Below are positions 8,063-58,686 of a stretch of DNA of 64,000 nt, one piece after another (the stretch's first letter is position 1; each line of letters starts with the position of its first letter). A program made the position numbers and the translations under genes. The notes beneath the pieces are model-generated. The model was given only the letters and a program-made list of their open reading frames with translations, searched no databases and was not told where the DNA came from. Origin of the DNA: Brevibacillus brevis NBRC 100599. GTDB lineage: Bacteria > Bacillota > Bacilli > Brevibacillales > Brevibacillaceae. The stretch is from the NCBI RefSeq assembly GCF_000010165.1, contig NC_012491.1, forward strand, positions 265,001-329,000, given 5' to 3'.

Positions 8063-8108
8063 TTGCCGAAATAGATGAAACAGTATGATCATAGAAAAAA
8101 CATGGAAT

Positions 8109-8156
8109 GGCGGGGGACTCACCCCCGTACCATTGTTCGGGTGGAAGTCCCTCGCC
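8109..8156 (+). other. Long stable hairpin between the ribozyme and glmS
   Basis: ggcgggggact (8109-8119) pairs with agtccctcgcc (8146-8156) with one G-U pair, and inside it caccc pairs with gggtg. No T run follows, so it is not a standard terminator. It begins about 45 nt after the ribozyme and ends 24 nt before the glmS ATG; it could stabilise the cleaved 3' product or affect translation (inference). Confidence 0.6.
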
Positions 8157-8180
8157 AAATTGGAAGGGGACCATACACTT

Positions 8181-10013
8181 ATGTGCGGAATCGTTGGATA
8201 TATTGGAAATAAACAAGCGCAAGACATCGTTATCGGAGGACTTCGCAAGCTGGAGTATCGCGGCTATGATTCAGCAGGGGTTGCTGTCGTGAATGAAAAC
8301 GGCTTGGATTACTCAAAAGCACAAGGCCGTCTGGCTGTTCTGGAAAGTCGTTTGGAGTCGAAGCCATTGACTGGTTCTATGGGAATCGGGCATACACGTT
8401 GGGCGACACACGGAAAACCGTCTGACGAGAACTCCCACCCACATACAGACGAGAAAGCGGCTTTTGCAGTCGTTCACAACGGGATTATCGAAAACTTCCT
8501 GCCATTGAAAGAAGAGCTGCTGGCAAAAGGCTACAAGTTTACCTCTGAGACAGATACCGAGGTTATCGCTCACTTGCTCGCTGACATGTACGATGGCGAT
8601 ATCGTTTCTACAGCGCGTCGTGCTGTACAACGTATGCGTGGTGCCTATGCATTGGGAATCATGACGGAGCACGAGCCAGATAAGCTGGTAGCGATTCGTT
8701 TGGCTAGTCCGTTGGTAGTTGGTGTGGGTCAAGGCGAGAGCTTTATCGGCTCGGATATCCCAGCTATTTTGGAGCATACACGTGACGTGTACATTTTGAA
8801 CGAAGGCGAAATGGCTGTGTTGACTCGCGATGGTGTGGAACTGATGAACGCAGAGACCGGTGAGAAAATCGAGCGGGAACTGTTCCATGTCGAGTGGGAT
8901 CTGGTACAAGCGGAAAAAGGCGGATATGATTCCTTCATGCTCAAGGAAATGCACGAGCAGCCTCAAGCTGTTCGCGATACCATGGGTGCCCGCATTGACG
9001 AGGAAAACAAGCGAGTGATTTTGCCTGAGCTGAAAATGAGCGATGCGGAACTGGCGACATATGATCGCATCTACATCGTGGCATGCGGTACTTCCATGCA
9101 CGCGGGTCTCGTCGGTAAGGATGTTATCGAAAAATGGACACGCGTACCTGTAGAGGTAGCAGTCGCTTCCGAGTTCCGTTACCGTGATCCGATCTACACA
9201 GACAAGACACTGATGATCGTTATCAGCCAATCCGGTGAGACAGCAGACACACTGGCTGCGCTGCGTGAGGCGAAAAAGAGCAACGTGAAGGTGTTGGCTA
9301 TCACCAACGTGGTAGGCAGCTCCGTAGCTCGTGAAGCTGACGAAGTGATCTTTACGTGGGCTGGTCCAGAGGTTGCGGTAGCATCTACGAAAGCATACAC
9401 CTCCCAAGTTGTTGCCCTGTACTTGTTCAGCCTGTATTTGGCTCAAGTAAAAGGCACCATGGCGGCTGCTGAGGTTGCTGAAGTGGTTGAGCACCTGAGC
9501 GAGATCCCTGGCAAAATCGCTTCCATGCTGAATAACGATGATCAAATTCGTCGCTTTGCAGAGGGCACGAAAGAGGTAAGCAGCCTGTTCTTCATCGGCC
9601 GCAGCCTCGACTATGCGGTATCGCTGGAAGGCTCTCTGAAGCTGAAAGAAATCTCTTACATTCACTCCGAGGCGTATCCAGCTGGTGAGCTGAAGCACGG
9701 TACTCTTGCGCTGATTGAAGATAATGTTCCAGTTGTAGCTTTGGCTACGCAACCAGACATCTACGAAAAAACGGTAAGCAACATCGTGGAAGTAAAAGCT
9801 CGCGGCGCTCATGTACTGGGCTTTGCGACTGAAGGCAACCACGACCTGGCGAAGAGTGTGGATGAGGTCATTTACATGCCAGCCACTCTGCCAATGCTCA
9901 CACCGATTCTGACCGTCATTCCATTGCAATTGCTTGCTTACTACGCTTCTGTCGCTCGCGGCCTCGATGTGGATAAACCACGGAACTTGGCGAAGAGTGT
10001 GACGGTTGAGTAG
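8181..10013 (+). CDS. glmS: Glutamine-fructose-6-phosphate aminotransferase GlmS
   Basis: A 610-residue cytoplasmic enzyme making glucosamine-6-phosphate from fructose-6-phosphate and glutamine. The N-terminal class II glutaminase starts MCGIVGYIG, with Cys as residue 2 becoming the N-terminal nucleophile after Met removal. Two SIS isomerase domains follow (for example CGTSMHAG and SQSGETADT), and the C-terminus ends in the conserved KPRNLAKSVTVE. The start at 8181 is fixed by the MCG motif. The last codons are the recognition sequence used by Tn7-type elements, and a Tn7-like island begins about 25 bp after the stop. Upstream control is by the ribozyme. Confidence 0.97.
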   Translation: MCGIVGYIGNKQAQDIVIGGLRKLEYRGYDSAGVAVVNENGLDYSKAQGRLAVLESRLESKPLTGSMGIGHTRWATHGKPSDENSHPHTDEKAAFAVVHNGIIENFLPLKEELLAKGYKFTSETDTEVIAHLLADMYDGDIVSTARRAVQRMRGAYALGIMTEHEPDKLVAIRLASPLVVGVGQGESFIGSDIPAILEHTRDVYILNEGEMAVLTRDGVELMNAETGEKIERELFHVEWDLVQAEKGGYDSFMLKEMHEQPQAVRDTMGARIDEENKRVILPELKMSDAELATYDRIYIVACGTSMHAGLVGKDVIEKWTRVPVEVAVASEFRYRDPIYTDKTLMIVISQSGETADTLAALREAKKSNVKVLAITNVVGSSVAREADEVIFTWAGPEVAVASTKAYTSQVVALYLFSLYLAQVKGTMAAAEVAEVVEHLSEIPGKIASMLNNDDQIRRFAEGTKEVSSLFFIGRSLDYAVSLEGSLKLKEISYIHSEAYPAGELKHGTLALIEDNVPVVALATQPDIYEKTVSNIVEVKARGAHVLGFATEGNHDLAKSVDEVIYMPATLPMLTPILTVIPLQLLAYYASVARGLDVDKPRNLAKSVTVE

Positions 10014-10033
10014 GGGTTGAAGGGTTAATAAGT

Positions 10034-10115
10034 CGAGTGATTCATTACAATAAAGTATTGTTCTGATCAATAAACTATTGTTCCAAGATGATTTCTAACA
10101 ATAAAGTTATGTTTT
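10034..10115 (+). repeat. attTn7 position with a degenerate Tn7-like right end
   Basis: CGAGT at 10034-10038 lies 21-25 bp after the glmS stop, where Tn7 inserts in other bacteria. The same pentamer follows the distal transposon end at 18212-18216. The next bases (TGATTCATTACAATAAAG) align without gaps to the proper element ends downstream, and AATAAAGTATTGTT-like units recur at about 10049, 10069 and 10100. This looks like an eroded right end with an altered core (TGTTCT instead of TAGACT). A single T lost between duplication and end would explain the overlap. Confidence 0.55.
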
Positions 10116-10183
10116 TTAGAAAATCACTGCTTATATTTAATTTTACCACCTGATTATAAGTAAAAGTGAAAATTGACGCCTGA

Positions 10184-10222
10184 AACCTGTTATGACAAAT
10201 CGTTGTCATAACAGGTTTTTTT
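10184..10222 (+). terminator. Strong terminator inside the left part of the island
   Basis: Perfect 15-bp stem aacctgttatgacaa/ttgtcataacaggtt with loop atcg and about seven T. It now probably ends glmS transcription, since the presumed native glmS terminator lies beyond the island at 18218. Confidence 0.92.
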
Positions 10223-10236
10223 GAACTTATTTATAT

Positions 10237-10326
10237 TGTTTACTGAAAGTAATGTATTAGACTCGAAAAATAAAGTGCTAGACTGAGAAAATATAGTTAT
10301 AGACTAAGCAAATAAAGATTTAGACT
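10237..10326 (+). repeat. R-type transposon end, four 21-bp TnsB-like sites
   Basis: After TGTTTACTGAAAG, the core TAGACT begins at 10258, 10279, 10300 and 10321, exactly 21 bp apart, each preceded by a gaaaaataaag-like tract. Overlapping sites with this spacing are the hallmark of a Tn7 right end. The first core starts 21 bp from the terminus, as in the nested element. Confidence 0.85.
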
Positions 10327-10443
10327 TAATGCCGATCATTAGGCTAACTGGTAGTTTAGTTTTAATCGTTCTCTACAGGTCATTGCTTTTTTCATTTTGT
10401 TATTATTATAAACAGAACATTACAAAAAAGGGTGTCTCTCTGA

Positions 10444-10572
10444 ATGGCCAGAACACTAAATGATAGTTTAATAGAGGCAGACATCGTTTCGTTGCAGTTG
10501 GCGATGGAATCAGGCGAGTTATCGTCAGCGGCTTGCGTTAGCTGGTATTTGGAGCGGATCGAACGACTCTAA
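10444..10572 (+). pseudogene. N-terminal fragment of an amidase
   Basis: 42 codons (MARTLNDSLIEADIVSLQLA...) matching the start of amidase-signature enzymes, with the usual pattern of a short helix, LQ-x-AM-x-SGELSS and a Y-L-x-RIERL helix. It stops at 10572, before any catalytic residue, directly abutting the Crp-type fragment. It is a deletion junction rather than a small gene; no good ribosome site is present. Confidence 0.6.
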
Positions 10573-10776
10573 TTGTTGCTACGGAAAACGAATACCAATT
10601 CAGAAGCCCCTTTGTATGCTACTCATGAGGTATTGTCTTTGGAATTAGGTACGGCAAGAGAAGTGGTAAGCAGGATACTGAAGGAATTTGAAAGGCTTGG
10701 ATGGATTAAATTGGGGCGAGGAAAAATTTATTTACTACAGCGCTCTGAGCTTGAACAGTTGGCTCAAGTAAAGTGA
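10573..10776 (+). pseudogene. C-terminal fragment of a Crp/Fnr-family regulator
   Basis: 67 codons from a TTG, carrying the winged helix-turn-helix of Crp/Fnr proteins: the recognition helix region LGTAREVVSRILKEFERLGW, then a wing GRGKIYLL. The cyclic-nucleotide-type sensor domain of about 150 residues is missing. It begins exactly at the amidase fragment's stop codon, so it marks the other side of the same deletion junction. Loss of the sensor makes it non-functional in the usual sense. Confidence 0.75.
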
Positions 10777-10835
10777 TTATGTCACAGAAGCGGATCGTTT
10801 TCATCCCTTATAATGACCACAGGAGGGATGAAAAC

Positions 10836-11030
10836 ATGAAAAACGTCGGATATTTGGATCGTACTATACGATTCATAATTGGAATTGTTCTATTATCGAT
10901 GCTTGTATTGGTCGAAGGAACATGGAAATACGCAGGACTAATAGGCATTCCATTAATACTGACTGGTCTGCTAGGTACCTGCATCGTCTATCGGATTCTT
11001 GGTGTCCGCACATGCTCTACCAAACCGTGA
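10836..11030 (+). CDS. DUF2892 inner-membrane protein
   Basis: A 64-residue protein, MKNVGYLDRTIRFIIGIVLL..., with two membrane segments and the conserved opening MKxNVGxxDRxxR of the DUF2892 (YgaP-like) family, often found next to rhodaneses and thiol-redox genes. The start at 10836 follows a strong aggaggg; an in-frame reading from 10773 lacks a ribosome site. It ends 19 bp before the AhpD-like gene, so the two probably form a unit. The precise function of this family is unknown. Confidence 0.8.
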   Translation: MKNVGYLDRTIRFIIGIVLLSMLVLVEGTWKYAGLIGIPLILTGLLGTCIVYRILGVRTCSTKP

Positions 11031-11049
11031 TAAGAAGGAGATGAATGAT

Positions 11050-11430
11050 ATGAAAACCTATCTTTCCCCAGCTAATCTACAACGGATTCCGGAATTAATA
11101 AAATTAAGTCCCGAAGCGGCTGCTTCTTATTTGGATTTCGAGCACCAAGTTTATCAAACAGCAAATACATTACCGCAGAAGACAAAAGAATTACTTGCCG
11201 TAACAGTTGCTCACGTAACGGGATGTCCCTATTGCATCGACGTTCATGTGAAAAAATATAAGGCTTTAGGAGGTACCATGGAAGAGATAATGGAAGCCCT
11301 TCTTGTTGCGGCATCAACCCGAGCTGGAGCCATTCTCAGCCACGGAGTTAACGCTCTGATATCCTACGAAGAAGGGGAGGAAAATGCGCCTCAAAAGGGA
11401 TCTAATGAAGGAATTAAGTGCTTTTGCTAA
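11050..11430 (+). CDS. AhpD-like carboxymuconolactone decarboxylase-family protein
   Basis: A 126-residue protein with the CMD/AhpD core: KTKELLAVTVAHVTGCPYCIDVH contains the redox pair C-x2-C followed by the proton-relay histidine, and the helix TMEEIMEALLVAASTRAGA follows. Such proteins act as thiol-dependent peroxidase partners or protect against reactive electrophiles. The C-terminus adds a Cys pair (KCFC). ATG at 11050 is preferred because agaaggag ends 9 bases before it; the ATG at 11041 touches that site. Confidence 0.82.
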   Translation: MKTYLSPANLQRIPELIKLSPEAAASYLDFEHQVYQTANTLPQKTKELLAVTVAHVTGCPYCIDVHVKKYKALGGTMEEIMEALLVAASTRAGAILSHGVNALISYEEGEENAPQKGSNEGIKCFC

Positions 11431-11577
11431 GAGTATAGTATCCATCTTAGTAGAAGGGACCTTGGTCAAGGATCTTAGTAGTTTTTAAGAGTAGAACCAC
11501 AAGGTCTTTCAAAGAAAAGGACGACCGAACACAGGAACAAACGGAACTCATGGCGCTGTGTAAGGAAAATTAACGAT
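11431..11577. other. Non-coding or decayed stretch before the IS3 remnant
   Basis: No intact reading frame and no convincing terminator. A possible decayed upstream part of an IS3-type element lies around 11500-11570 (aaggacgaccgaacacagg), but I cannot assign it. Confidence 0.4.
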
Positions 11578-11811
11578 TGATGACGTCATCCGTATATTTA
11601 AAATCAAACGTTCGCTGAGCATGAAAGGCTACCCTTACGACAATGCAGTCGCAGAAGCGACTTTTAAGCTGATCAAAACGGAGTTTGTAAAGAATCGAAG
11701 GTTTGAGTCACCAACATAGTTGAAACAAGAATTAGGGGCATACGTAAAATGGTTTAACGGTAAGCGCAAATTAGCCCCGCTAAGAAAAAATGGTGAGGGC
11801 TATTTCTTCTA
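11578..11811 (+). pseudogene. IS3-family transposase (orfB) C-terminal remnant
   Basis: The forward frame reads RIFKIKRSLSMKGYPYDNAV then AEATFKLIKTEFV, a stop after ESPT, then LKQELGAYVKWFNGKRKLA. This is the last third of the DDE integrase of IS3/IS150-type elements, including the conserved YDNA-x-AE block with the catalytic Glu and the final Y-x-x-x-x-N-x-x-R/K-L region. The internal stop and missing N-terminus show it is dead. It abuts the IS66 gene end. Confidence 0.8.
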
Positions 11812-12487
11812 GGACTAGGATTTCGTGATGTGACAAACATCTGGTAATGACGTCGACCATGGAAGGAAACGGTCCAACTCTTCTCCGTTCTTCACATCAG
11901 ATAATTGGGGTATTTGTTCAAACAGATAGTTCAGATATTGGAAGGGATTTAGTTGGTTCTCTTTCGCTGTCTCAAGTAAGCTATAGATGATTGCACTGGC
12001 TTTTGCACCGCGAGGTGAATTTGCAAACAACCAGTTTTTTCTTCCAATGACAAAGGGTTTTATGGACCTTTCACTTCGGTTGTTATCCATCTCCAGACGT
12101 CCGTCTTCTAGAAAGGAAGTCAGTTTCTCCCACTGATTTAAGCTGTAGGCAATGGCTTGACCAACTGCGCTTTTAGGTAGGGTACGGGCTCTTTGCTGGC
12201 AAAGCCATACCAAATAAGCATCCAAAATGGGCTTGCTCCGCTCTTTTCGGATGGCATACCGCTCTTCCGTTGAAGGTAGGACTTTTAGTGCTTCGTCAAA
12301 CTTTCGGCGAGCATGTGCCCAACACCCAACAAGTGTCGTATTGGCTACCTTGTGGTATCCCACATAGCCATCCACGTGGAGATACCCATGAAAGCCTTGT
12401 AGATAATCACGGGGATGCTCACCGCCACGAGTCCGTTTATAGTCAAATAAGACAATGGGTGGACCCATTCGTCCCGTTCGATACAGC

Positions 12488-12576
12488 TGTTAAAAGAAAA
12501 TAAACCATTAGACTGAAAAATAAAGTGTTAGACTAGGAAAATAAAGTTGTAGACTGAGAAAATATAGTATTAGACC
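12488..12576 (+). repeat. R-type end of the mini-element
   Basis: TAGACT or TAGACC cores at 12509, 12529, 12550 and 12571, each preceded by gaaaataaag-like sequence; the first core is 21 bp from the terminus, as in the end at 10237. Confidence 0.88.
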
Positions 12577-12675
12577 GGGAACGGAATTAAGCTAACGGGC
12601 AGAAGAGCTGAATAAATATGTTAAAATTGGATTGTGGAAAGCTTATTTCGCCTATTCAAAGGGAGATAGTAGAAA

Positions 12676-13089
12676 ATGCAAAGTGCCCAACAGGTGCTAA
12701 CAAGTTATTTTCAAGCATTAGGAAGCAAACAGATCGATAAAGTGATCGAATTGATTCATGATGAAGCAAAATTTATTATTCTTAAAAAAGAGCCCTCTAA
12801 TAAAATTCCTTTATACGGCACATTTCATGGAAAAGAAGGGGTTAGAAATTATTTAAACTTATTAGAAAAGTCAGAACAAATAGAGGGGTTTGTCCTCCAC
12901 AAACTCATCGGTAATGAGGAAGCTGCGTGTGCATGGGGGAATTTCCGCATCAAGGTTAATGTAACCGGGAAAGTATTCGAGAGTGATTGGGCAATTATTT
13001 GCGAAGTAGAACAGGAGAAGATAAGGTTTTTTCAAATCTTCGAAGATACGGCTGCACTAGAAGAAGCATTCGATTTAAGAGACCGTTGA
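12676..13089 (+). CDS. SnoaL-like (NTF2-fold) protein carried by the mini-element
   Basis: A 137-residue protein starting MQSAQQVLTSYFQALGSKQI, with the N-terminal helix, FHGKEGVRNYL segment and curved-sheet pattern (ACAWGNFRIKV, DWAIICEVEQEKIRFFQIFED) of SnoaL-like proteins. This fold covers small-molecule isomerases, hydrolases and binding proteins, so no reaction can be named. aaagggag lies about 10 bases before the ATG. It is AT-rich and is the only gene between the transposon ends, so it is true cargo. Possible roles include detoxification; this is inference only. Confidence 0.8.
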   Translation: MQSAQQVLTSYFQALGSKQIDKVIELIHDEAKFIILKKEPSNKIPLYGTFHGKEGVRNYLNLLEKSEQIEGFVLHKLIGNEEAACAWGNFRIKVNVTGKVFESDWAIICEVEQEKIRFFQIFEDTAALEEAFDLRDR

Positions 13090-13212
13090 AAGTTAGTGCG
13101 CCTGTACAGCACTATGCTGAGCAATCATACGAAAACATAGGTTATTGGCCGGCAACATAGTTAAGTAATGCGTTCAACTAACTGGGAACGTTAGTTGAAC
13201 GACACCAGCGGA

Positions 13213-13362
13213 AGTCTAAGACTTTATTTTTCAAGTCTTGGTCCGCCGCTGTTTCTTTTAATGGATCAGTCTAAAACTCATTTTTCAAAAGCTGACGATT
13301 TTTCAATTCAAAAATAGCGTCAAATCAACGATTCCAGTCTAATTCTTTATTTTCATCGAACA
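13213..13362 (-). repeat. L-type end of the mini-element
   Basis: Inverted cores AGTCTA at 13213, 13268 and 13336, spaced 55 and 68 bp, with the outer core ending 21 bp from the terminus. The distances are identical in the island's end at 18062-18211. Confidence 0.88.
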
Positions 13363-13835
13363 ACAGCCACATATAGGACTGTGTTTGTGGAGCTTTCCCC
13401 TGGTTCACGAAGGACTTGTAGCGTGGTTTCATCCGCATAAAGGACATCCTGACGTAACAGGTGTACACGCATCCTCTCTACAAGGTGAGACAGCCACTTT
13501 TCAGCTCCATAGATCATCCAATCGGCAAGAGTCTGTCGTGAGAGAGGAAGACCTAAGCGAGCAAACTGCTGCTCCTGCCGATACAAGGGCTGACTCTCTA
13601 CGTACTTTTGGCACATAACATGTGCCAAAATAGAGGGAGAAGCGAAGCTACCCGGATAGACAGGTCGGGGCATCGGTGCTGTTACAACAGGCGTATGAAC
13701 ATCTTCACGTTCGCAATGACGACAGGCATAGACTTGACGCACATGACGCACAACTTTCACTTGTGCGGGGATAATCTCTATTTCACTTCGTGTCTCCGTA
13801 CTCATTTCATGTAGTGCGCCACCACAGCTTGAGGC

Positions 13836-13932
13836 GATCTTGGAGCAATCGCAGGGTTTCGCAGATTCCCAAGTGCAAACGGCCCAGGACAGCGAAAAAA
13901 AGGCGTGGCGCGTCGCCGGCGCTTTCGGCGGT
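13836..13932 (+). pseudogene. VirB8-like N-terminal fragment
   Basis: About 30 codons read LEQSQGFADSQ then VQTAQDSEKKAWRVAGA and FGGIALL. A short acidic N-terminus ending in S-E-K-x-AW and a membrane helix is typical of VirB8/TrbF proteins, the periplasmic assembly factor of type IV secretion. It lacks both ends and joins head-on to the VirB11 fragment. Confidence 0.5.
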
Positions 13933-13938
13933 ATCGCC

Positions 13939-14148
13939 CTACTCCTGACCAAGACACCATTCCTGCGTGATCGCTGGTATCTGGTGCGTCGTCCAGCCGT
14001 CCGGTCCCTCGGTAAGCACTTCGCCAGGACCGTTGATAACGAACTCCGTCAACGTCTTATCGTCCAAGAACGGCCGCAACGGCGCCAGTTGTAAATCGAT
14101 CGTGGAAGGCGATGTTTTCAATTCCACCGCCTCAGAACGAGCATTCAT
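13939..14148 (-). pseudogene. VirB11-like ATPase, N-terminal fragment
   Basis: From ATG at 14148 the frame reads MNARSEAVELK and then LAPLRPFLDDKTLTEFVING and PGEVLTEGPDGW, the conserved N-terminal domain of VirB11/TrbB traffic ATPases. No Walker motifs follow; the frame ends after QEWCLGQE. Its start overlaps the stop of the VirB10 fragment (TGATG), the natural virB10-virB11 arrangement in conjugative plasmids. Confidence 0.8.
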
Positions 14149-15022
14149 CAAAGTTTCTCCTTGAGTCCGTACACACCCCGGAAATCGAGATCGCGGGCGA
14201 CGTAGATGTTGACCGTAGCGCCCTGGTGTTTCCGCAAAGTCGGCGGGGGGATATCGGCCGTGAGCTTGAGCACGTCGCCCATGACCGATTGCGTGCCTTG
14301 GATCGTGTTCGGGAAGGCAAGGACGGTGTTGTTGCCCGAACCACTTCCCTTGGTCTGACTTGCGGCGAGCGCCGAACCAACGTCATCGATCAAGCTGAGC
14401 ATGATTGCACTACCGAATCGCTCCCAAAAATGCGTGTCGACCTGGCCGCTAATCCCCGATCGGCCCAGCTCGTCAGCAGCCGGCGATGCCAGGTTGATGA
14501 CGACACCGTTTGGCGTCTTGGCGCGGGTCCACAGCAAGAACGCACGGCTTTGGCCGTTCACCAGAGCACGCTGCATTTCACCTGTGTACACCGTACCTTT
14601 TTCCAATAGGACGACGGCGCCGTTGTCGCTGTACGCGTCTTGCGCCTGCAGGCACGACACCATGCCCGGCAACGTCGTGTCGATTGCTTCCGGCATCGTG
14701 CATTCGACGTGCGCAGCTTGCGCGATCAGGTAATTTCGATCGGTAAGCAACGCAGCCCGCGCACCGGGCAGATAAGATCCCTGCAGCCGTTCAGACAGTC
14801 TATCACCCGATCGAGCCGCACCATCGCCGGAGCTTCAAGGCGCCGATTAAAGACTTTCTCTGCAGGCGTAAGCGGCCGTGGTTGCTGCGCACCAGGTGGA
14901 GGCGGCGCCGGCGGCGCACCGTCAGCACCGACCGAAGTCGTTGCCACTGTCTGGCCCGCTGGCGTCGACGGAGGTGGTTGCGGAGGTGGAGGCGGCACGG
15001 TCAACGGCGGTAATACGCTAAC
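14148..15022 (-). pseudogene. VirB10-like type IV secretion protein, truncated and frameshifted
   Basis: The C-terminal domain (LLTDRNYLIAQ, VLLEKGTVYTGEMQRALVNG, SPAADELGRSGISG, HFWERFGSAIMLSLIDD) is diagnostic of VirB10/TrbI, the core protein spanning both membranes in conjugation systems. The proline-rich linker (PPLTVPPPPPQPPPSTP, about 14960-15020) lies upstream in a different frame; the two join only through a shift near 14800. The cytoplasmic start and anchor are missing. The inverted copy at 16119-16383 has the same shift, so that mutation preceded the duplication. Confidence 0.85.
14662..14926 (+). repeat. 265-bp inverted repeat, left copy (VirB10 segment)
   Basis: The reverse complement of 16119-16383 with one difference seen (tctatcaccc against tccatcaccc). 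The two copies flank the KorA fragment and the small membrane protein. Confidence 0.92.
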
Positions 15023-15270
15023 CATTTTGGGAGTTCGCGACGATCCGCCCCTACTTGAAGCGCCTGAAAGAACGAAATATTCAGGTGATTTACGAACACC
15101 TGGTCGACGGTCGACAACAAACTGAACTTGCCGACGAACTAGGCATCACGAAGAAGGCGGTAAGCCAGATGGTCAGCAAGGTATGGGCGCTGCACATCGA
15201 GCACGGCGAACGGCCGGACGGTTGGACAAGTATTAGCGTCACTCTGGGCGCTGCGCACACTACGCCTTAG
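15023..15270 (+). pseudogene. KorA/TrfB-type plasmid repressor fragment
   Basis: The frame reads RPYLKRLKERNIQVIYEHLV, DGRQQTELADELGITKKAVS and QMVSKVWALHIE, then PDGWTSISVTL. The helix-turn-helix with AVSQ-x-V-x-x-VW, followed by a P-x-GW and beta strand, matches the TrfB/KorA repressors of IncP-type plasmids, which shut off transfer and replication operons. The N-terminus is not defined (first possible start TTG at 15055) and the gene may be fused to foreign sequence at about 15023. Confidence 0.7.
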
Positions 15271-15597
15271 AACGACTAACAAAACCCCTAGTTGCTCTGC
15301 AGGCAACAGCCGAGTACACTGAGCCGTGCCGACCGTCCGCAATCGGCCAGAAGCGGCCCTTCGCCCGACCGAATTTTTGACAGCTGACAGGGACTGGAGT
15401 GATATGAAGACTGCGTTTGTAATATTTTTACTTTCGGTCCAGTCGAGCGACTCCAGCAACACTGAGGCCTCTGCTACACCGATATCATTCGACACCGCTC
15501 AGTTCTATTACGGTTGCGCCGACAGATGCGATTAGAAATAATAATAGAAAACTTGCCTTTTGCTTCTCTAATTGATGGAGCAAGAAAGGAGCACTCA
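15271..15597. other. Foreign intergenic sequence
   Basis: 327 bp between the KorA fragment and the small membrane gene. Short frames exist but none has a recognisable domain or a good ribosome site. I see no assignable feature. Confidence 0.4.
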
Positions 15598-15978
15598 GTG
15601 GGATACGTGGTTTCTGCAATGCTGGTGGTAGCCGGAGTCATTCATCTATTGCCATTGTCTGGGGTTCTTGGAAGTGAGCGCCTTGCTTCCCTATATGGCT
15701 TGCCCTTCAACGAGCCAAATCTTGCAATCCTTATGCGTCATCGCGCGGTTCTTTTCGGGCTTATTGGGAGCTTCTTGCTGTTTTCTGCCTTCCAACCCGC
15801 ACTTCAATCAATTGCCATTGTTGGAGGGATCATTAGCGTTGTTTCGTTCCTCTATCTTGCCTGGGCAGTAGGAAGCTACAACCCACAAATTGGTCGGGTC
15901 TTCCTCGTAGATGTTATAGTCCTGATTTGCCTTGTTGTCGGCGCAATCGCTCATGTTTATATGCTGCGTAAAAGCTGA
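15598..15978 (+). CDS. Small four-helix membrane protein of unknown function
   Basis: 126 residues from GTG at 15598 (aaaggag 6 bases upstream), starting MGYVVSAMLVVAGVIHLLP, with four hydrophobic helices and conserved-looking polar stretches (GLPFNEPNLAILMRHRAVLF, VGSYNPQIGRVFLVD). It resembles a family of small proteobacterial membrane proteins that public annotations sometimes mislabel as phosphopantetheine adenylyltransferase; no enzyme motif is present. Base composition is closer to gammaproteobacteria than to the host. It lies between the inverted VirB10 copies. Confidence 0.65.
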   Translation: MGYVVSAMLVVAGVIHLLPLSGVLGSERLASLYGLPFNEPNLAILMRHRAVLFGLIGSFLLFSAFQPALQSIAIVGGIISVVSFLYLAWAVGSYNPQIGRVFLVDVIVLICLVVGAIAHVYMLRKS

Positions 15979-16118
15979 CTGCAGCGTGTGAAATGGTGAG
16001 GAATAACTCTCAGCTCAACACTTCGACACTGCGTTTCAACATAGGCGGTTGACAGCAATCCGTTTGGGTATCGAACGTCTGCTTCGGGTCGACAGCGGAC
16101 GTACACAGCCGTGCTTTG

Positions 16119-16383
16119 GCTGACGGTGCGCCGCCGGCGCCGCCTCCACCTGGTGCGCAGCAACCACGGCCGCTTACGCCTGCAGAGAAAGTCTTTAATC
16201 GGCGCCTTGAAGCTCCGGCGATGGTGCGGCTCGATCGGGTGATGGACTGTCTGAACGGCTGCAGGGATCTTATCTGCCCGGTGCGCGGGCTGCGTTGCTT
16301 ACCGATCGAAATTACCTGATCGCGCAAGCTGCGCACGTCGAATGCACGATGCCGGAAGCAATCGACACGACGTTGCCGGGCAT
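16119..16383 (+). repeat. 265-bp inverted repeat, right copy (VirB10 segment)
   Basis: Inverted copy of 14662-14926. In the forward frame it encodes PPAPPPPGAQQPRPLTPAEK and FNRRLEAPAMVRLD, part of the VirB10 linker. Confidence 0.92.
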
Positions 16384-16472
16384 AGTTTTTCTAACCATGC
16401 CCTTTTTCCTGTCCCGAATCAAGTTCTTTAAGTGGTGCGGCTTGAAATAGTCCCGTCTCAGGAGGTTAATTT

Positions 16473-16673
16473 ATGGTTTTCCCGTATCAATCGGAATTTC
16501 ATGCTGGACAAGATGTGCTGGCCTTTTTTCGCAAGCAAGAAAGTTCGCCGACGATATGTGTCTCTGGGCCAACAGGTGCTGCGAAATCTAGAGTTTTTAC
16601 CACAAAAAGGAGCACTCTATACACGCGAGATAAGCATGATCATAGAGTGCTCTTCAACATTTTTTATAAATGA
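16473..16673 (+). pseudogene. Truncated P-loop ATPase fragment
   Basis: Begins at ATG 16473 behind a perfect aggagg, reads MVFPYQSEFHAGQDVLAFFR and then ICVSGPTGAAKSRV, a Walker A-like loop (GPTGAAKS) near residue 35. After about 40 codons it runs out of family-like sequence and into the hairpin at 16603, so it is an N-terminal stump. A phage terminase, helicase or transposon AAA protein are all possible; the fragment is too short to decide. Confidence 0.5.
16603..16658 (-). terminator. Bidirectional terminator, downstream of the TIR gene
   Basis: gagcactctat (16610-16620) and atagagtgctc (16642-16652) form an 11-bp stem. On the minus strand the stem runs into CCTTTTTG, terminating the TIR transcript; on the plus strand a T run follows after tcaaca. 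Confidence 0.8.
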
Positions 16674-16770
16674 GATTAATAATACGATCAAAAATAATAT
16701 TTCTTTCATTAAAGACATATCATGATGCACAGTTAGAAAATTTATAAAATCCACTGATAATAATCTGCAA

Positions 16771-17817
16771 TTAATTAGAATGTACGATGTCTTGACCTAG
16801 AACCTCTTCCCAAAAAGGCGAATATTTTAGTCCAAACATCACATCTTCATATTCATCCTCAAATCGATCTTGAATTATTGCTGGATCCTCATCAATGACA
16901 GCTTGTAATGCGTCTATTGCATTATCGGCTCTTCGAACAGCTGGGTGTGTATAAACAGGTTTCCATCCATCGTCCCATTCAATGTACCCCTTACTGTCTA
17001 ACTGCTGAAGGTCGGCAAAATCCATTTGGTCTCCAACAAAGCCATCATATGAAGACTTCCTCATATGGTACAAAACACTTGTTACAAGCTTTGGTAGTTT
17101 ATCCAACTCATTTTTGGCAATAGTAACAGCATCCAAAAATGATTGCCACTCATCCATTTTGGCATGGTCAAGTGCCTTTACTGCTTCAGCGTCTTTTAAA
17201 CTACGCAGAGCATCATTTTCAGCTTTTAGCTTTTTTACTTCTTCTTCAGCTTCATTATAGGCCTCTATTAATGAGTGATTTTCTGTTCTCAACTCTTTTA
17301 GGACAGCAGGGGTGAGGATCTCTCTACTCTTCATTTCTTCGACAAATTGTGATAAGACCTCATTATAGAATTGTTCTGCTCGATTATTAAAACGAACACT
17401 ATTAAAGGTACCAACCTTTTTATCTTTCATGGATTCAGCTAAACGCATTATGTCCTCTTTGGAGTTAAATGTGATTGATTGAGCCCATGAGCGATAAGGA
17501 GTACTACCCAGAGCAGAATGTTTTAGTGGCGGGATAATGATAGGGATTAGTGCTTGTTCATTTACCCAAGCTGCTCCTAGCTCACACATGCAAAAATGAC
17601 TCTCGAAGTACCTTGGAGTAATTATAGGCATAATAAGAGTCGCATCCTGCATTCCTTGTCTTATTTGTTCAATCCAGTTGCCTCCAACTTTCAATTCTTC
17701 ATCTGAAGTATAGAAAAAATTCTCTCTTTGTAAATTAAATTGAGTCTGCAGTAAATCCATGAGTTTAGTTACCATTGTTGCATCATCAGTAGCATGGCTT
17801 ATGAAAATTTTGACCAC
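16771..17817 (-). CDS. TIR-domain protein, probable anti-phage effector
   Basis: 348 residues from GTG at 17817, behind caggagg. Residues 1-140 form a TIR domain: MVKIFISHATDD strand, a surface segment around FFYTSDEELKVGGNW, and CMCELGAAW with the conserved Glu79 expected to catalyse NAD+ cleavage. A coiled coil covers about 175-215 (EAEEEVKKLKAENDALRSL). The C-terminal 130 residues are helical, acidic and unassigned, possibly a sensor or oligomerisation domain. The first strand lacks an obvious partner gene. It sits next to the distal transposon end, a typical position for defence cargo. The NADase role is a family inference. Confidence 0.85.
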   Translation of the reverse strand: MVKIFISHATDDATMVTKLMDLLQTQFNLQRENFFYTSDEELKVGGNWIEQIRQGMQDATLIMPIITPRYFESHFCMCELGAAWVNEQALIPIIIPPLKHSALGSTPYRSWAQSITFNSKEDIMRLAESMKDKKVGTFNSVRFNNRAEQFYNEVLSQFVEEMKSREILTPAVLKELRTENHSLIEAYNEAEEEVKKLKAENDALRSLKDAEAVKALDHAKMDEWQSFLDAVTIAKNELDKLPKLVTSVLYHMRKSSYDGFVGDQMDFADLQQLDSKGYIEWDDGWKPVYTHPAVRRADNAIDALQAVIDEDPAIIQDRFEDEYEDVMFGLKYSPFWEEVLGQDIVHSN

Positions 17818-18061
17818 AACGATAATCCTCCTGAACTAGAAAAATGTTGATGTCCAACGCTAAGTGCCTATTATAGCCATAATTGGAACCAATAATCTGA
17901 ATGTAATTATACCATTTTTACTTATTCAGAGAATTAATGAATTTATCTTTAGCAATCTATAAATGATTAGACTGGCTAGTTAGCCACATAAGGGTATGAA
18001 CTCCTGGTTTTCAAAGAAAAGCTGGCTGATGGAGATCTTCAGGGCCGACTGCTCTTCTGTC
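17818..18061. other. TIR-gene upstream region
   Basis: AT-rich. A TATAAT on the minus strand near 17872 (gctataataggc) is a plausible -10 for the TIR gene, about 50 bp before its start, without a good -35. A lone ttagactgg at about 17969 resembles a transposon core in the opposite orientation. Confidence 0.4.
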
Positions 18062-18211
18062 AGTCTACAACTATATTTTTCAATTCAACCCTATTACTCC
18101 CGATTCAAATCCCTTCAGTCTACAACTTATTTTTCAGAGGTAGTTGATATTATGGGCTGGAAACAGTGTAATATCAACAACTCCAGTCTAAAACATTATT
18201 TTCAGCGAACA
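18062..18211 (-). repeat. L-type end of the large Tn7-like island
   Basis: Inverted cores AGTCTA at 18062, 18117 and 18185, spaced 55 and 68 bp and ending 21 bp before the terminus, identical to the mini-element. An internal inverted repeat gttgatatta/taatatcaac lies at about 18140-18180. The next five bases are CGAGT. Confidence 0.88.
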
Positions 18212-18217
18212 CGAGTG

Positions 18218-18243
18218 AAAAACAGGTATGCACATCTGTTTTT
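18218..18243 (+). terminator. Probable native glmS terminator, displaced by the island
   Basis: aaaaacaggt/atctgttttt around loop atgcac, seven bases past the transposon end. In bacteria carrying Tn7 at attTn7 the insertion falls in the glmS terminator region, so this hairpin is what would be expected of the original glmS 3' end, now 8.2 kb away. Confidence 0.75.
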
Positions 18244-18332
18244 CCTCGGCTTATTTTTATTTTCAAGACATATATTTATTGAAACAAAGTGTTAGATGAA
18301 TGTTTGTTAGTAATTTGCACTCTACAATTGCG

Positions 18333-18372
18333 AAACCCCGCCACAAGCTCTATCAGAGTCGAGGCGGGGTTT
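18333..18372 (-). terminator. Terminator downstream of the 18398 gene
   Basis: aaaccccgcc/ggcggggttt, 10-bp stem, with an A/T run on either side, so it can stop transcription in both directions. Confidence 0.85.
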
Positions 18373-18397
18373 AACGGTATAACGTACTTTTTAACTT

Positions 18398-18853
18398 CTA
18401 TGGCTCCTCATTTGCAAACATCTCCAACGTAGCCATTAGAATGTCTTTCTTTTTAGTATAGTAGTCTAAATATGGAGTACCTATTAGCGCCGCACCTTCA
18501 ATCATTGAACAAAAATCATAAACAGGTATAGGGCGTCCGATTCCTAGGGCAGCACCTACTGTCGATAGTAATGCCAGTAAACGAACCGGGTTCCATTCCC
18601 ATTCCAAGAGTTGAAGAAGTTGAATGGCACTAGAAGCTCTTTTCGTTTGCTCGATCGTATATACTTCGGGGAATCGCCCATCCGTCTTGTAGGCATGGAA
18701 AAACTCGTTGTAGTAAGCTTCTGCTGCGACATCGATATCGCGGTACATTTCTCTAAAATCCGTGTAAGGTTGACTTTTATTCTTCATTACTGCCACACCA
18801 ACCTTTCTTACTAGATAGATGCGTTTAGCATGACCTTCTCCCGAGTGGTCCAT
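18398..18853 (-). CDS. Conserved-looking hypothetical protein
   Basis: 151 residues from ATG at 18853; ATG at 18787 (MKNKSQPYTDFREMY, 129 residues) is an equally possible start and gives a more protein-like N-terminus. The sequence has an acidic helix-rich N-terminal half (DIDVAAEAYYNEFFHAYK) and a hydrophobic middle (LLALLSTVGAALGIGRPIP). I recognise no family. It lies alone between a displaced glmS terminator and glpQ, and ends in its own terminator. Confidence 0.6.
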   Translation of the reverse strand: MDHSGEGHAKRIYLVRKVGVAVMKNKSQPYTDFREMYRDIDVAAEAYYNEFFHAYKTDGRFPEVYTIEQTKRASSAIQLLQLLEWEWNPVRLLALLSTVGAALGIGRPIPVYDFCSMIEGAALIGTPYLDYYTKKKDILMATLEMFANEEP

Positions 18854-22099: not shown

Positions 22100-23314
22100 T
22101 CACTTGCTAGGCCCTGATGCGCCGAAATCAGTAGTGGTAAGCTTTACGAAGTAAGTGATGGGTACGGTGCTGAATGTTTGGTCCCAATCTTTTTTTACTT
22201 TCTCCCACGTTTTTGGATACTCGATTCGCAAACGTTCTCCGAATCCGGCAACATCCGCATGGAAATGGTTTTGCATTTTTGCTGTGACATTCTTGACCAG
22301 TTTCCGTACTTCCAATTCAGCCGCTTTTTCCACCCTTTTTAGGAATTCATTTTCAAAAGGATTTGCGTTCAACACCCAATTTTCAGACAAGCGTCCCTTC
22401 GAATTGATATGCACATCAAAGGAAATCTTGTTTCCGTCAACATGGGGAGTGATTTTGCTCTCCATGGTTTCGATCTCATAGATGATCAGTTGACCTGTCT
22501 CCTTGTCAAGGCTTCTCACTAGCCCTCCTTTACCTTTTCCGGTTATCCACGTTATGCCCTCCAAATCCATTTCGTTTAAAAATCCCGCCCATTTTTTTGT
22601 CTTTCCATTGATCACGGCTGCCCCCTCAAACTTCACTTCCTTGTTAGAAGCGGCAACATTTTGCAAGAGAAAGCTTGACTCGGAATTCAACTTGGCCGTT
22701 AATTTGGCGAGTGACACAGGAGGTAAAATTTTGGCTGTTCGGTTTCGGTTATCTACGATTCCAAGCAAATTGAGTGCTGGCAATTCTCCCGGTTTTTTGG
22801 TTTCCAAGACATCGCGGGCATTCCCGTTACTAACCAATAACAAGCAGCTTGGACGTATTTCATTATCTCGCAGAAATAGATCCAGCAAAGATTCCAAACG
22901 ATGTGTGTGTAACAGAGCCTCGCTAATCACAATTACTTTTAAGTGTGGGCTGAACAAGGGGGTATCATGGCTTAATGAAAATTCACGGATGATTGGAAGG
23001 ATAGATTCACCAGTTTGGGACGCATTCAAATATGCTTTTTGTTGTGGTCCTGCCGAACTGCTTTCTTTGCTTGTTGCTTTTGGGTTAATAAATTGATAGG
23101 TCATGGTGATTGTGTCAACGTGAGGGGGGCTCTTTCCCTGCTTTTCCAGCTTTTTTTCAACATTTGATTTGTTGCTGGCATCCAATGCCAAACCGATGCC
23201 CATACCCATCTTGTCGATATCGTTGCTGCTCCAGCATCCGGTCAGTAAGAAGAGCAGGAAAACAGATAACGATGTCAAGAGGAGGAGCCTCTCACGATGA
23301 TGACTTTGCTTCAT
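22100..23314 (-). CDS. Spore germinant receptor subunit C (GerC type lipoprotein)
   Basis: A 404-residue lipoprotein: signal sequence then lipobox LLTGCW (Cys about 27), followed by the GerAC-family domains (DIDKMGMGIGLALD, ISEALLHTHRLESLLDLFLR, DNEIRPSCLLLVS). In spores the C subunit is anchored to the inner membrane and joins A and B in the germinant receptor. Its first 23 bp overlap the end of the B gene, so translation is coupled. The ligand of this receptor cannot be told from sequence. Confidence 0.93.
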   Translation of the reverse strand: MKQSHHRERLLLLTSLSVFLLFLLTGCWSSNDIDKMGMGIGLALDASNKSNVEKKLEKQGKSPPHVDTITMTYQFINPKATSKESSSAGPQQKAYLNASQTGESILPIIREFSLSHDTPLFSPHLKVIVISEALLHTHRLESLLDLFLRDNEIRPSCLLLVSNGNARDVLETKKPGELPALNLLGIVDNRNRTAKILPPVSLAKLTAKLNSESSFLLQNVAASNKEVKFEGAAVINGKTKKWAGFLNEMDLEGITWITGKGKGGLVRSLDKETGQLIIYEIETMESKITPHVDGNKISFDVHINSKGRLSENWVLNANPFENEFLKRVEKAAELEVRKLVKNVTAKMQNHFHADVAGFGERLRIEYPKTWEKVKKDWDQTFSTVPITYFVKLTTTDFGASGPSK

Positions 23315-24413
23315 GCTTACCCACCTTCCAGCCAGAAATAATAAGAAGGAGAAGGGGCATTACACCAAATAAGAAAAAGGCTGCATCGCCCACAAAATCT
23401 CCAAGTGCAAATACACTATTGATTTCTTTTGGAGTCATCGTAATGATGTAGATAACAGGCAGCAATCCGAATAGAAACGGCTCCATATTTTTCTTGAAGA
23501 GCTGGGCGAGGCCTAGAGCGGCTGAGTAGTAAGCCAACGTGAAAGTAGAAAAGATTTGCATAATCCATAATACGAGCAGCAACGATTCAAACCGTTCAAA
23601 GAGTAAACCGGTAATTTCAAAGCTTCGTATGAGATCAATGGTCGGCCATGTCCTTGTGACGACTCCATCGATTGAAAACGCCCCAATGACCATCACGACT
23701 GTCATCAGGTAAAAGATCAACGAGGCGCTAATTCCCACCACAACGGCTTTCACACCTTTGTTTGGCTGTCTCATGTATACCACTATAATCATCATTATTT
23801 CAAAACCGGTATAGGCGAGCGCAGTTGGTTTAATCCCATCGAACACCGGTTTCCACCCCAGCCCCAATACGGGACGAAGATGATCGATTTCAAAAATTTT
23901 TATGCTCATCAAGGAAACCACCAAAAAAAAGAGGACAGTAATTGGCAAGATAATCTCAAGCATACGGGCGAGACAATTGATGCCACCTATGACAAGATAA
24001 AGAGCAACCCACAAAAATACCATAACAATGGCCCACATTGGGGTTTTCTCCAGCAAGTAAAAGGTTGTTACTTCAGCCATAGATCGGACTTGAAGAGATG
24101 AGGTCATACAAAAATAACAGATGATCAGAAGGCTGAGCATCCTTCCAACCCATTCCCCTGCAATTTCCTGGCTGTATTCAAAAAACGTTTTCTCAGGGAA
24201 GCGCTGGCTTAATTTTACAATGATTATTCCAGCGAGCATCGCGAGTAAACCGCCAATGATGACACTTATCCAAACATCCGGTGTCTTTGCTTTTTCCACT
24301 GAGATTCTAGGCAGGGTAAGGATTCCCGCTCCCAATATAAAGTTGATGATGATCACTGCTGTTTGCGAGGTGGTGATCCGATCATTTCGGGTGGGTAACA
24401 TTTTGGGCTTCAC
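23292..24413 (-). CDS. Spore germinant receptor subunit B (GerB type permease)
   Basis: 373 residues with about ten membrane helices of the APC-like spore germination permease family: start TTSQTAVIIINFILGAGILT, RTWPTIDLIRSFEITG and GLAQLFKKNMEPFLF. GerAB proteins of this type bind the germinant amino acid or nucleoside. The gene begins 16 bp after the A gene and overlaps the C gene. Confidence 0.93.
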   Translation of the reverse strand: MKPKMLPTRNDRITTSQTAVIIINFILGAGILTLPRISVEKAKTPDVWISVIIGGLLAMLAGIIIVKLSQRFPEKTFFEYSQEIAGEWVGRMLSLLIICYFCMTSSLQVRSMAEVTTFYLLEKTPMWAIVMVFLWVALYLVIGGINCLARMLEIILPITVLFFLVVSLMSIKIFEIDHLRPVLGLGWKPVFDGIKPTALAYTGFEIMMIIVVYMRQPNKGVKAVVVGISASLIFYLMTVVMVIGAFSIDGVVTRTWPTIDLIRSFEITGLLFERFESLLLVLWIMQIFSTFTLAYYSAALGLAQLFKKNMEPFLFGLLPVIYIITMTPKEINSVFALGDFVGDAAFFLFGVMPLLLLIISGWKVGKHEAKSSS

Positions 24414-24429
24414 CTACTATACTGAGTGG

Positions 24430-25923
24430 CTATCCTTTGCGAGTCGGCTCTTTCGTATGCAGCATTTTTGGACGGCGTTTCATCATCATGAGTGGCATGC
24501 GCACCATAAAATCTTTCCAATCCCTTAACCGATAGGGGACAGCAGGAGTAACATAAGGTACACCAAAACTTTTTAGTTTTACCAAATGACTCGTAAGCAA
24601 GAGAAAAAACAAAATCACCCCGTACAATCCAAACATGGCTGCTGAGAACATGACCAAAAACCGAATGAGACGTAAGGAAATACCTAGGTTGTATGACGGA
24701 ATGGCAAAGGAGGAAATAGCAGTGACAGCCACGACGATTACCATAATTGGGCTGACAATACCTGCTTGTACTGCAGCTTGACCAATAATCAGTCCACCGA
24801 CAATCCCGATGGCAGGGCCGATTGGTTTCGGCAATCGAAGACCGGCTTCTCTCATAATCTCGATAGAAACTTCCATGATCAGTGCCTCCAACAGAGCGGG
24901 AAATGGAACTCCTTGTCGAGTGCTGATGATGGAAATAGCCAATTCGGTAGGAATTAACCCTTGGTGAAAAGAGATAAAGGAAATATAGAGGGCCGGTATA
25001 AGTAAGGAAGAAAAGGCAGTGAAAAAGCGCAACAAGCGAATGAATGTGCTTGGAATCCAGCGCTCATAATAGTCTTCAGGCGATTGCAGGAGCATGCTGA
25101 ACGTCACTGGAACGATTAAGGCAAAAGGAGTACCATCCAGCAAGATGGCCACTCGTCCTTCCATTAATGCACTGATGACGCGGTCAGGCCGTTCTGTGCT
25201 CTGCGCCTGCGGGAATGGGCTGAGATAATTATCTTCAATAAGTTGCTCCACATAGCCGGATTCCGGCACATGGTCAATTTTAATTTTCGTAATTCGATTT
25301 TTTACTTCTTCAACCAACGCGGGATTCGCAATCTCTTTCATATAGGCGATAATCAGCTCTTTTTTTGCACGCTCTCCCACCTGAAATTTTAGGAAGAGAA
25401 GATCTCCATTTTCACCGTGTCTCCGCAAGAGGGCGGTATTTTCGCTTAACGTTTCCGTGAAGCCTACTCTAGGGCCTCTAACCAAAGATTCTGAGACAGG
25501 TTCATCTATATTTCTTGTTTTTACTTTTACGGTATTAAGAAGGAGAGCATTTGCGGTCCCTTCAATCAACAGTGCCGTAAAGCCAGTCAATACTTTTGTC
25601 CTCAGATCGTATACATCCCGGCATTCCAGTATTTCATGGATGGAAAGCACATGATTGATGAAAAAATCTTTGGATACAGAAACGTCCCCCGAAGAATTCT
25701 CCTGTACCATCACTGCCACAGAATCTTTCATGAGCGTTTTCAGAATAGTATTATCGATGAGATCGCGATCGGATAACCCATCTACAAAAACAATGGAAGC
25801 ACGACTGGCAGTCTGTCCGAAAGAAAATTCGCGGATATGCACATCTGCGTTTTGGGCGATTTCCTGACGGATAAGATTTAAATTCGATAGGTAATCGTCT
25901 GTAAATGGAGCGATACTTTCCAT
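24430..25923 (-). CDS. Spore germinant receptor subunit A (GerA type)
   Basis: 497 residues. The cytoplasmic N-terminal domain (to about 240) is followed by five or so membrane helices of the GerA family with typical segments [60 protein letters not shown]. It is the A subunit of the same receptor. The start is 5 bases after the stop of a 41-codon membrane-protein gene, giving the order small protein-A-B-C on the minus strand. Confidence 0.95.
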
Positions 25924-46542: not shown

Positions 46543-49620
<3,078 letters not shown>

Positions 49621-56784: not shown

Positions 56785-57717
56785 TTAATAAAGAAAACGC
56801 CATAAATAAAAAGTAGCGTACGACTCCCAATTCGTCCAAGTCTTGGACAGCTCTCGTATTTCTGCTTTTGTCGGCTTTTTTTCTTTGCCTAGTAAAAATT
56901 TGATCGCATTGTGCAGGCCGACATCATCAATGGGAAAAGCAGAGGGCATTCGCAGACAGCGCATGAGCACATAATTGGCCGTCCACGGTCCAATCCCGCG
57001 GATACTGGTCAATCGTTTCTCCGCGGTTTGATAATCTCCTCCGTCCCATAATAGCTCTTTCGATAGTTTCCCTTCAACGATGAGTTGTGCGACGTCAATT
57101 AAATACTCGCATTTCTTGGTCGTCATGCGCAATCCATCCAGATCAGTGACGGATAATCCGGCGATTTTTTCTGCTGTGGGAAAAAGCCAATACGTCTCTC
57201 CTTCGAATTCTACCCGTCTTCCGAATGCCTCTACCAACCGTCGTTTAAGCGTGTACGCGTAGGTCAGGTTAATTTGTTGTCCAATGATTCCCCAACTGAG
57301 CGCTTCAAATAGGTCGGGAATACCCATGGTCCGCAGCCCGTAAAACTTTTCAACGGCCTGCTTTAGAAGAGCATCCCCTGCAGCAAGCTCATAAAACGGA
57401 ACGAGATCCCTGTCCAGATCAAACCAGTCTCGCACATAACGTGCTACTTCTGTTCGTACTTTTTCATTGGGAAGTGAAGGGCTGAGAAAACGCACAGTCA
57501 ATCCTTGATCATTCTTTGCGTGAATTTCGACCACTTGTGAATCCTGTCCAATCGGGATGGCTTTGTAGAGGCGCCCATTTTGAATGTGAAACATGCATTC
57601 GTTGGATGCTCTGGACAAGTAGTGAAGATTTTGCGAAAAACTGAATTCCGTAGGTACGGACAAAATGATTTCATCTCTATTATCGACCCAAGCCGAGTGT
57701 GATAGACCGCTTGTCAT
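56785..57717 (-). CDS. alkA: DNA-3-methyladenine glycosylase II (AlkA type)
   Basis: 310 residues with an N-terminal TBP-like domain and the helix-hairpin-helix glycosylase core: [20 protein letters not shown], the HhH hairpin [17 protein letters not shown] and the catalytic Asp in [13 protein letters not shown]. It removes alkylated bases such as 3-methyladenine. ATG 57717 follows caggagg. First gene of an alkA-nfo unit that diverges from adaA, the alkylation-response regulator. Confidence 0.92.
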
Positions 57718-57886
57718 GTGAAAACCTCCTGTCTGACTTCCTCCTAGTTTTATACCAAGATAAGCGGGGCTGTCATTTCGTTATCTTGCTATTTTAATCT
57801 TCTAGCAGTACGGATCATGTAGTGTGGGGGTATACTGTCGGTAAGAGCAAGCGATTCGATGACAGCTACGGCAAAGGAGATGACAT

Positions 57887-58456: not shown

Positions 58457-58523
58457 GCTGCTTGTGAAATGTGATATCTTTAGAAGTAGAAGCATCAGCA
58501 TCTGAGAATAACGACCACTTGAC

Positions 58524-58667: not shown

Positions 58668-58686
58668 AAAAAGGAGCCCTGCCAAG

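Follow-up and report, generated by a model that had tools for sequence, protein, structure and literature searches.

A complete 875-bp Tn7-family cassette without transposition genes in Brevibacillus and its probable helper element

Passages of a large survey of Tn7 cargo (PMC8649781) describe Tn7 as having three sites in its left end and four in its right end, and indicate that the sequences surveyed were gathered around putative tnsB homologues, so cassettes lacking tnsB would escape such a collection. Parts of the same source and of PMC10761935 report that TnsE directs Tn7 to other mobile elements and to replicating DNA. MIC231 of IS231, from the Bacillus cereus group, is presented in extracts of PMC1196294 as having no transposase of its own and as being trans-activated by a related autonomous element. 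The TIMEs portrayed in sections of PMC4133298 are Tn3-derived and non-autonomous, with genes in some cases and 5-bp duplications, and two of the three gene-carrying forms given there are composites of two TIMEs. For MITEs, an excerpt of PMC10969869 gives a size range of 50–500. Among the matches listed in the open-access literature, we found no description of trans-mobilised, tnsB-free Tn7 cargo cassettes.

The window analysed here is a stretch of 64,000 nt from Brevibacillus brevis NBRC 100599, to which all coordinates without a genome label refer. It contains a complete, non-autonomous Tn7-family cassette of 875 bp (12488–13362, plus strand), hereafter E1, recognised from its tips, sites and target duplication. 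E1 has TGT...ACA tips, a terminal inverted repeat of 31 bp (81% complementary) and the target duplication ACAGC on its low (12483–12487) and high (13363–13367) sides. The low end (12488–12579, plus strand) consists of a TGT tip in the sequence TGTTAAAAG, followed by four overlapping 19-bp TnsB-type sites (12497–12515, 12517–12535, 12538–12556 and 12559–12577, plus strand) in steps of 20, 21 and 21 bp. The high end (13203–13362, minus strand) has the sequence TGTTCGATG, followed by three minus-strand sites (13335–13353, 13267–13285 and 13212–13230) spaced by 68 and 55 bp. An earlier note on this DNA had described a complete 875-bp element with both ends, an ACAGC duplication, three sites at 55/68-bp spacing (starts at 13212, 13267 and 13335) and four overlapping TAGACT sites; all these features are present, except that the fourth overlapping site reads TAGACC. 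The Tn7-like layout that it proposed also holds for both arrays, but since four sites are attributed to the right end of Tn7 in the survey passages (PMC8649781), the low end of E1 is R-type, and the left and right of the earlier note should be swapped. Allowing two mismatches at most, the 19-bp pattern of the sites matched 39 times in the 6.3-Mb genome, as against once for a reversed control, a frequency far above chance. Apart from the end sites, the direct repeats inside E1 comprised a single pair of 12-mers. To judge from their sequence, the end arrays would be bound by TnsB.

An autonomous Tn7 element carries tnsB and tnsC, and usually tnsA, whereas the only E1 ORF of at least 70 aa is a SnoaL_2/NTF2-like gene of 137 aa, as the claim of a single SnoaL-like gene and no transposition gene had implied. 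Insertion at attTn7 would have placed E1 downstream of glmS, and E1 sits in an IS66 gene. We rejected a CRISPR-associated transposon, given this sole ORF and the lack of cas genes in E1, and there were no Rfam matches at the gathering score in window positions 10000–18700. A strict MITE (at most about 0.5 kb, with little coding capacity) was also rejected, and the label of MITE applied in the earlier note is apt for the lack of a transposase but loose for an 875-bp element with an intact, constrained gene, for which mobile insertion cassette is a closer term.

The cargo gene (12676–13089, plus strand) matched Pfam PF12680 (E=4.7e-9). In Foldseek, the AlphaFold model of its product (pLDDT 81.6), a generic NTF2-like cone, matched NTF2-like/ketosteroid-isomerase folds with E values down to 1.7e-10. 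The dN/dS values were 0.09–0.18 in all nine comparisons, indicating that the gene is retained for function under purifying selection. A hairpin with a U-rich tail (13206–13262, plus strand; folding energy -22.1 kcal/mol, z -6.0) was not among the calls of a simple terminator scan, and could possibly terminate transcription of the cargo from within the L end. As it overlaps the innermost L-end site, folding suggests that the L end may also end cargo transcription.

Solitary inner-L-end fragments without tips were observed in G000 (834405, 1594035, 3010430, 3336887, 3402625 and 3550310) and elsewhere in the genus. They span only query positions ~684–827, including the terminator-like hairpin, and may be eroded ends kept as terminators. 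The SnoaL cargo region was also found with no adjoining family tips in G009 (locus L130, 5624–6225) and G007 (locus L131, 5819–6308), at about 91% DNA identity; these regions are either eroded copies or the source locus.

E1 interrupts an IS66 transposase gene (11815–13952, minus strand; ORFs 11815–12468 and 13353–13952). When the flanks are joined without E1, the reading frame is continuous across the junction, and seven uninterrupted IS66 homologues from three congeners (four in G001, two in G016 and one in G023; 67–70% identity) all span this junction with no gap there. The description of the IS66 gene as exactly restored is therefore accurate for the junction, but at some 30 bp from there the gene is frameshifted, and in its 5' part it apparently runs into unrelated high-GC DNA. 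The IS66 gene is thus broken independently of the E1 insertion, and the restoration is local only. No second IS66 copy was detected in the same genome at E values up to 1e-20.

E1 lies within a larger attTn7 island with two more family ends (10237 and 18211), a setting that the earlier note missed. The attTn7 marker gene glmS (8085–10013, plus strand; GATase and SIS domains) is followed, at bases 21–25 after its stop codon, by CGAGT (10034–10038), which is repeated at 18212–18216 and bounds an island of 8.2 kb. The second copy directly follows the L-type end that closes the island (18061–18211, minus strand; sites at 18061, 18116 and 18184), and in the 155 bp examined from congener G022, CGAGT occurs a single time, in sequence that in the window comes after the island. 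An R-type end and the start of an amidase gene occupy 10237–10569 (plus strand); this stretch is what is left of a different, truncated cassette and shares 96.1% identity with the initial 333 bp of an intact amidase cassette of 1926 bp in G005. Besides this remnant and the IS66 gene with E1, the island contains a TrbI/VirB10-type fragment and, as cargo, a TIR-domain gene (16771–17817, minus strand; PF13676, E=1.2e-14; PADLOC spbK, E=3.7e-19). We considered a simple 8-kb element extending from 10237 to 18211 (E2) and rejected it: its end flanks differ (TATAT and CGAGT), and the region was therefore treated as a hybrid attTn7 island. Another R-type family end lies at a distance of 2.25 kb from E1. 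The long-range target immunity of Tn7 would disfavour insertion near family ends, and E1 may have entered IS66 elsewhere.

At 13850–15500, a fragment of high GC content carries a TrbI/VirB10 domain (E=2.9e-50), its DNA resembling Xanthomonas virB10 at only about 67%, and other seemingly scrambled type IV secretion pieces can be recognised by eye; all of this lies within a Firmicutes attTn7 island and is either foreign DNA or an assembly oddity. At the island start (10039–10120), AT-rich repeats of another type (AATAAAGTATTGTTC-like) are present and may represent the R end of a different Tn7-like family, and the sequence at ~10124–10232 resembles glmS-side DNA of G008, whose TnsB shows an identity of only 26%. 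A 1003-aa ORF at 46600–49620 lies in a block whose GC content reaches 0.62 and whose AT skew reaches 0.53, very unlike its surroundings, and probably encodes a low-complexity or repetitive protein.

The earlier note expected a TnsABC with matching binding sites in the genome, at present or in the past, and proposed a search for a TnsB-encoding element with the same end sites. Such an element was found in a congener, G014 (contig 64): it spans 20,565 bp, has an AAAAT duplication and an R tip 25 bp from the glmS stop codon, and contains TnsA, TnsB, TnsC and TnsD genes in Tn7 order. Another of its genes encodes a C-terminal domain of TnsE (PF18623, E=3.2e-14) and matched solved TnsE structures (E=0.003–0.006). 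The G014 TnsB matched Tn7 TnsB with E=3.4e-105; NCBIfam models gave no names to the Tns proteins. The cargo of this element comprises a type I restriction system, Thoeris ThsA/ThsB and another TIR gene. Its ends agree with those of E1 in 83 of 92 positions (R) and in 120 of 162 aligned positions (L), and we consider it the probable helper for E1-type cassettes.

The clearest evidence that the E1 ends would belong to the G014 TnsB clade is an association between sites and TnsB sequences. We compared the 31 TnsB places with a locus, out of 33, over about 1.5 kb of flank, a distance beyond which sites escape. Sites were present upstream of tnsB in all three loci with a TnsB at least 60% identical to that of G014 (four sites in G014, four in G115 and two in G051), and 27 of the 28 loci with less than 50% identity had no site of score 15 or more; the remaining one, G303 (44% identity), has two weaker sites. 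TnsB relatives at 76–96% identity carry the names of Brevibacillus and Paenibacillus species. Of the 26 genus genomes, only one contains a full-length TnsB from the matching clade, G004 having a 25-residue fragment (80%). The genome carrying E1 had no PF08722 (TnsA), PF09299 or TnsB match, so the expected machinery was located only in relatives. Both Pfam models recognise the G014 proteins, and PF09299 was detected in eight of the 26 genus genomes; neither model was detected in 14 control genomes.

The earlier note also proposed looking for other copies that share these ends and have 5-bp duplications, and such copies were found. DNA matches related to E1 were found in 23 of the 26 genus genomes, including its own; the one in G007 contig 3 (7555–7594) has the same coordinates as a match in the Brevibacillus brevis plasmid NZ_CP134052.1, which points to Brevibacillus as the genus. 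From part of the places found, we sampled 84 loci chosen for E1-like sequence, sites or TnsB-type genes, and tips, defined as TGT or TGC plus a site, gave 95 rows, one a duplicate from overlapping loci. Identical 5-bp flanks were observed for 16 of the 32 low/high end pairs, with 0.03 expected at 1 in 1024, and none of these 16 was an R-R or L-L pair, one end being untypable in two. The pairs failing the duplication test include E2 (10237/18211), 360572/364103 in G019 C18 and 365820/369462 in G002. The 16 duplication-flanked elements are spread over 11 genomes, and 14 of them, including E1, are short (830–2856 bp), with different cargo genes. The two larger ones are the helper element (20.57 kb) and a 16.06-kb element of G011, located 25 bp after glmS in a genome with no TnsB match.

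A Pfam scan of the 14 short cassettes, covering their main ORFs with some small ORFs left out, identified SnoaL_2, CMD plus MerR, GNAT, an ArsR-type regulator, amidase, PhzF, TetR plus aldo/keto reductase, MFS, TIR, AHSA1, AAA kinase, cupin and AccA-like cargo; the 215-aa cargo of E4 had no Pfam match. For E3 (G000 1353104–1355834, AAAAG duplication), the empty site was recovered in eight congeners at 88–95% identity, with small indels near the junction in some. No target consensus shared by the duplicated 5-mers was seen by eye. Some targets look like insertion sequences, the one in G016 being what we take to be an IS256-type transposase gene, and several junctions have no ORF across them. 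A search of a phage collection yielded no match.

Two of the loci deserve separate mention. Locus L127 (17267–18348, G019 C22) holds a complete 1008-bp cassette with a CTAGT duplication, 74 bp from another R-type tip, a further example of neighbouring family ends. Locus L138 (4097–6081; G014 C79 38097–40081) holds a cassette with a lone ThsB-type TIR gene (PADLOC, E=4e-118), flanked by direct repeats of 291 and 66 nt and near an extra R end. This cassette, which shares its genome with the helper element bearing both ThsA and ThsB, is possibly a plug-in Thoeris sensor.

The same cargo was found at 84–96% identity in eight Paenibacillus loci, although L118 covers residues 11–41 only, and five of them have one or more family sites next to it (L111–L114 and L118; none in L115–L117). 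The ends of these chromosomal copies are eroded and none has a perfect duplication, the nearest being four of five bases in L114. Matches were also obtained with 17 plasmid records, nine from Paenibacillus. Complete cassettes with perfect duplications were identified in P. polymyxa pSb31l (57368–59369, CCATT), a P. sonchi plasmid (14988–15880, TGAAG) and Paenibacillus sp. pHD05 (22120–23674, CCATG); the flanks of a further pSb31l copy (24028–24982) are mismatched, and the Priestia copy has no recognisable second tip. These records suggest that the cassettes spread on plasmids.

We suggest, with a probability of about 0.9, that E1 is a natural mini-Tn7 mobilised in trans by TnsA and TnsB, with TnsC, of one Brevibacillus/Paenibacillus TnsB clade. 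Helper TnsA and TnsB would bind the ends of E1, cut it out and join the ends to a target, TnsC and a target selector would place it, and insertion into the IS66 gene would generate the usual 5-bp duplication. This mobilisation in trans would imply that TnsABC was once present in, or transiently introduced into, the E1 host. The attTn7 insertions of G014 and G011 would fit TnsD, and the dispersed and plasmid insertions would fit TnsE. Our attribution of the non-att targets to the TnsE pathway is tentative, and we rate it slightly below even odds. Tn7 insertions directed by TnsE are oriented. With the origin assumed to be at coordinate 1 and the terminus at the midpoint, and with untyped tips and the ends at 275237 and 283211 left out, we found no replichore orientation bias: 13 of 25 typed elements or ends, from eight genomes of 1–4 contigs, were co-oriented (p=1). 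This random orientation counts against a strong TnsE signature. Twelve of the 25 lie at 0.40–0.65 of the chromosome, a band picked post hoc.

E1 could instead be the relic of a full Tn7-like element that entered IS66 and lost its tns genes in place, never having been mobile in its short form. The lack of TnsA/TnsB matches in the host genome and the truncated cassette remnant nearby (10237–10569) would be expected from such decay, but the same cargo lies beside the same kind of sites in Paenibacillus (L111–L114 and L118), and perfect duplications flank 14 complete short cassettes, one of them E1, that differ in cargo. It thus seems that the elements are inherited and move in their short form, and we regard decay in place as improbable. 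Even less credit is due to recognition of the ends by an unrelated transposase, of the Tn552/TniA type or of another TnsB family, rather than by the G014 clade. Other TnsB families do exist in the genus (G002, 39% identity; G016, 40%; G008, 26%), and the G303 locus with its weaker sites could be read in this way; however, no sites were found upstream of the G002, G016 and G008 TnsBs, and the division of the sites between the loci above 60% and those below 50% identity argues for the G014 clade.

A rather different question is whether E1 transposed at this locus at all. It could have arrived with IS66, or by homologous recombination in the attTn7 island, and its proximity to another family end would then be uninformative about target immunity. 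Its location 2.25 kb from an R-type end, inside the CGAGT-bounded island, and the cargo regions of G009 and G007 without adjoining tips are consistent with such an arrival. However, with no second IS66 in the genome, no donor IS66 carrying E1 is visible, and the perfect duplication indicates that, whenever and wherever this happened, it was transposition that brought E1 into IS66. We consider this route unlikely, although a good deal less so than decay in place. Mobilisation in trans by the G014-type machinery is our preferred reading of E1.

More broadly, Tn7 in Brevibacillus and Paenibacillus may constitute a distributed system, in which a rare TnsABCDE helper serves a larger pool of mini-Tn7 cassettes, each with one to three genes, carried between genera on plasmids, in hosts mostly without the machinery. 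We put this forward as a possibility that falls a little short of an even chance. The cargo classes of such a system would be metabolic, regulatory, transport and defence, including the lone ThsB sensor in the Thoeris-carrying helper genome. Cargo surveys that begin with tnsB are blind to tnsB-free elements, and 14 of the 16 duplication-delimited elements here are shorter than 3 kb; if this pattern is wider, the Tn7 machinery moves more genes than have been counted. As a probable helper, ends and cassettes have been identified, mobilisation in trans, TnsD versus TnsE targeting and target immunity are directly testable, and the ends of 92 and 160 bp suggest a compact Gram-positive mini-Tn7.

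E1 resembles Tn7 and Tn7-like elements in its TGT tips, its three spaced and four overlapping sites of about 20 bp and its 5-bp duplication, and its partner element has TnsABCD and a TnsE-type gene, 25 bp from glmS. E1 differs from Tn7 in having no tns gene, in its length of 875 bp and in occupying IS66 and not an att site of its own. With MITEs, it shares a short, transposase-free structure and, probably, movement in trans, but it exceeds the range cited from PMC10969869 and carries a constrained gene. TIMEs are likewise non-autonomous derivatives of a multi-gene transposon family, gene-carrying in some cases and with a 5-bp duplication, but they have Tn3 ends, whereas those of E1 are Tn7 ends. 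The proposed mini-Tn7 pool would resemble integron cassettes in being found mostly in hosts without the machinery. The anatomy of E1, cargo without a transposase, is that of MIC231, and its movement would similarly occur in trans; the difference lies in the IS231 (IS4-family) ends and transposase of the one and the Tn7 ends and multi-protein TnsABC of the other. The component parts are known, and their arrangement is like that of mobile insertion cassettes and TIMEs, here with Tn7 ends and a probable multi-protein helper. By analogy, E1 is best read as the Tn7 counterpart of the MIC231 of IS231.
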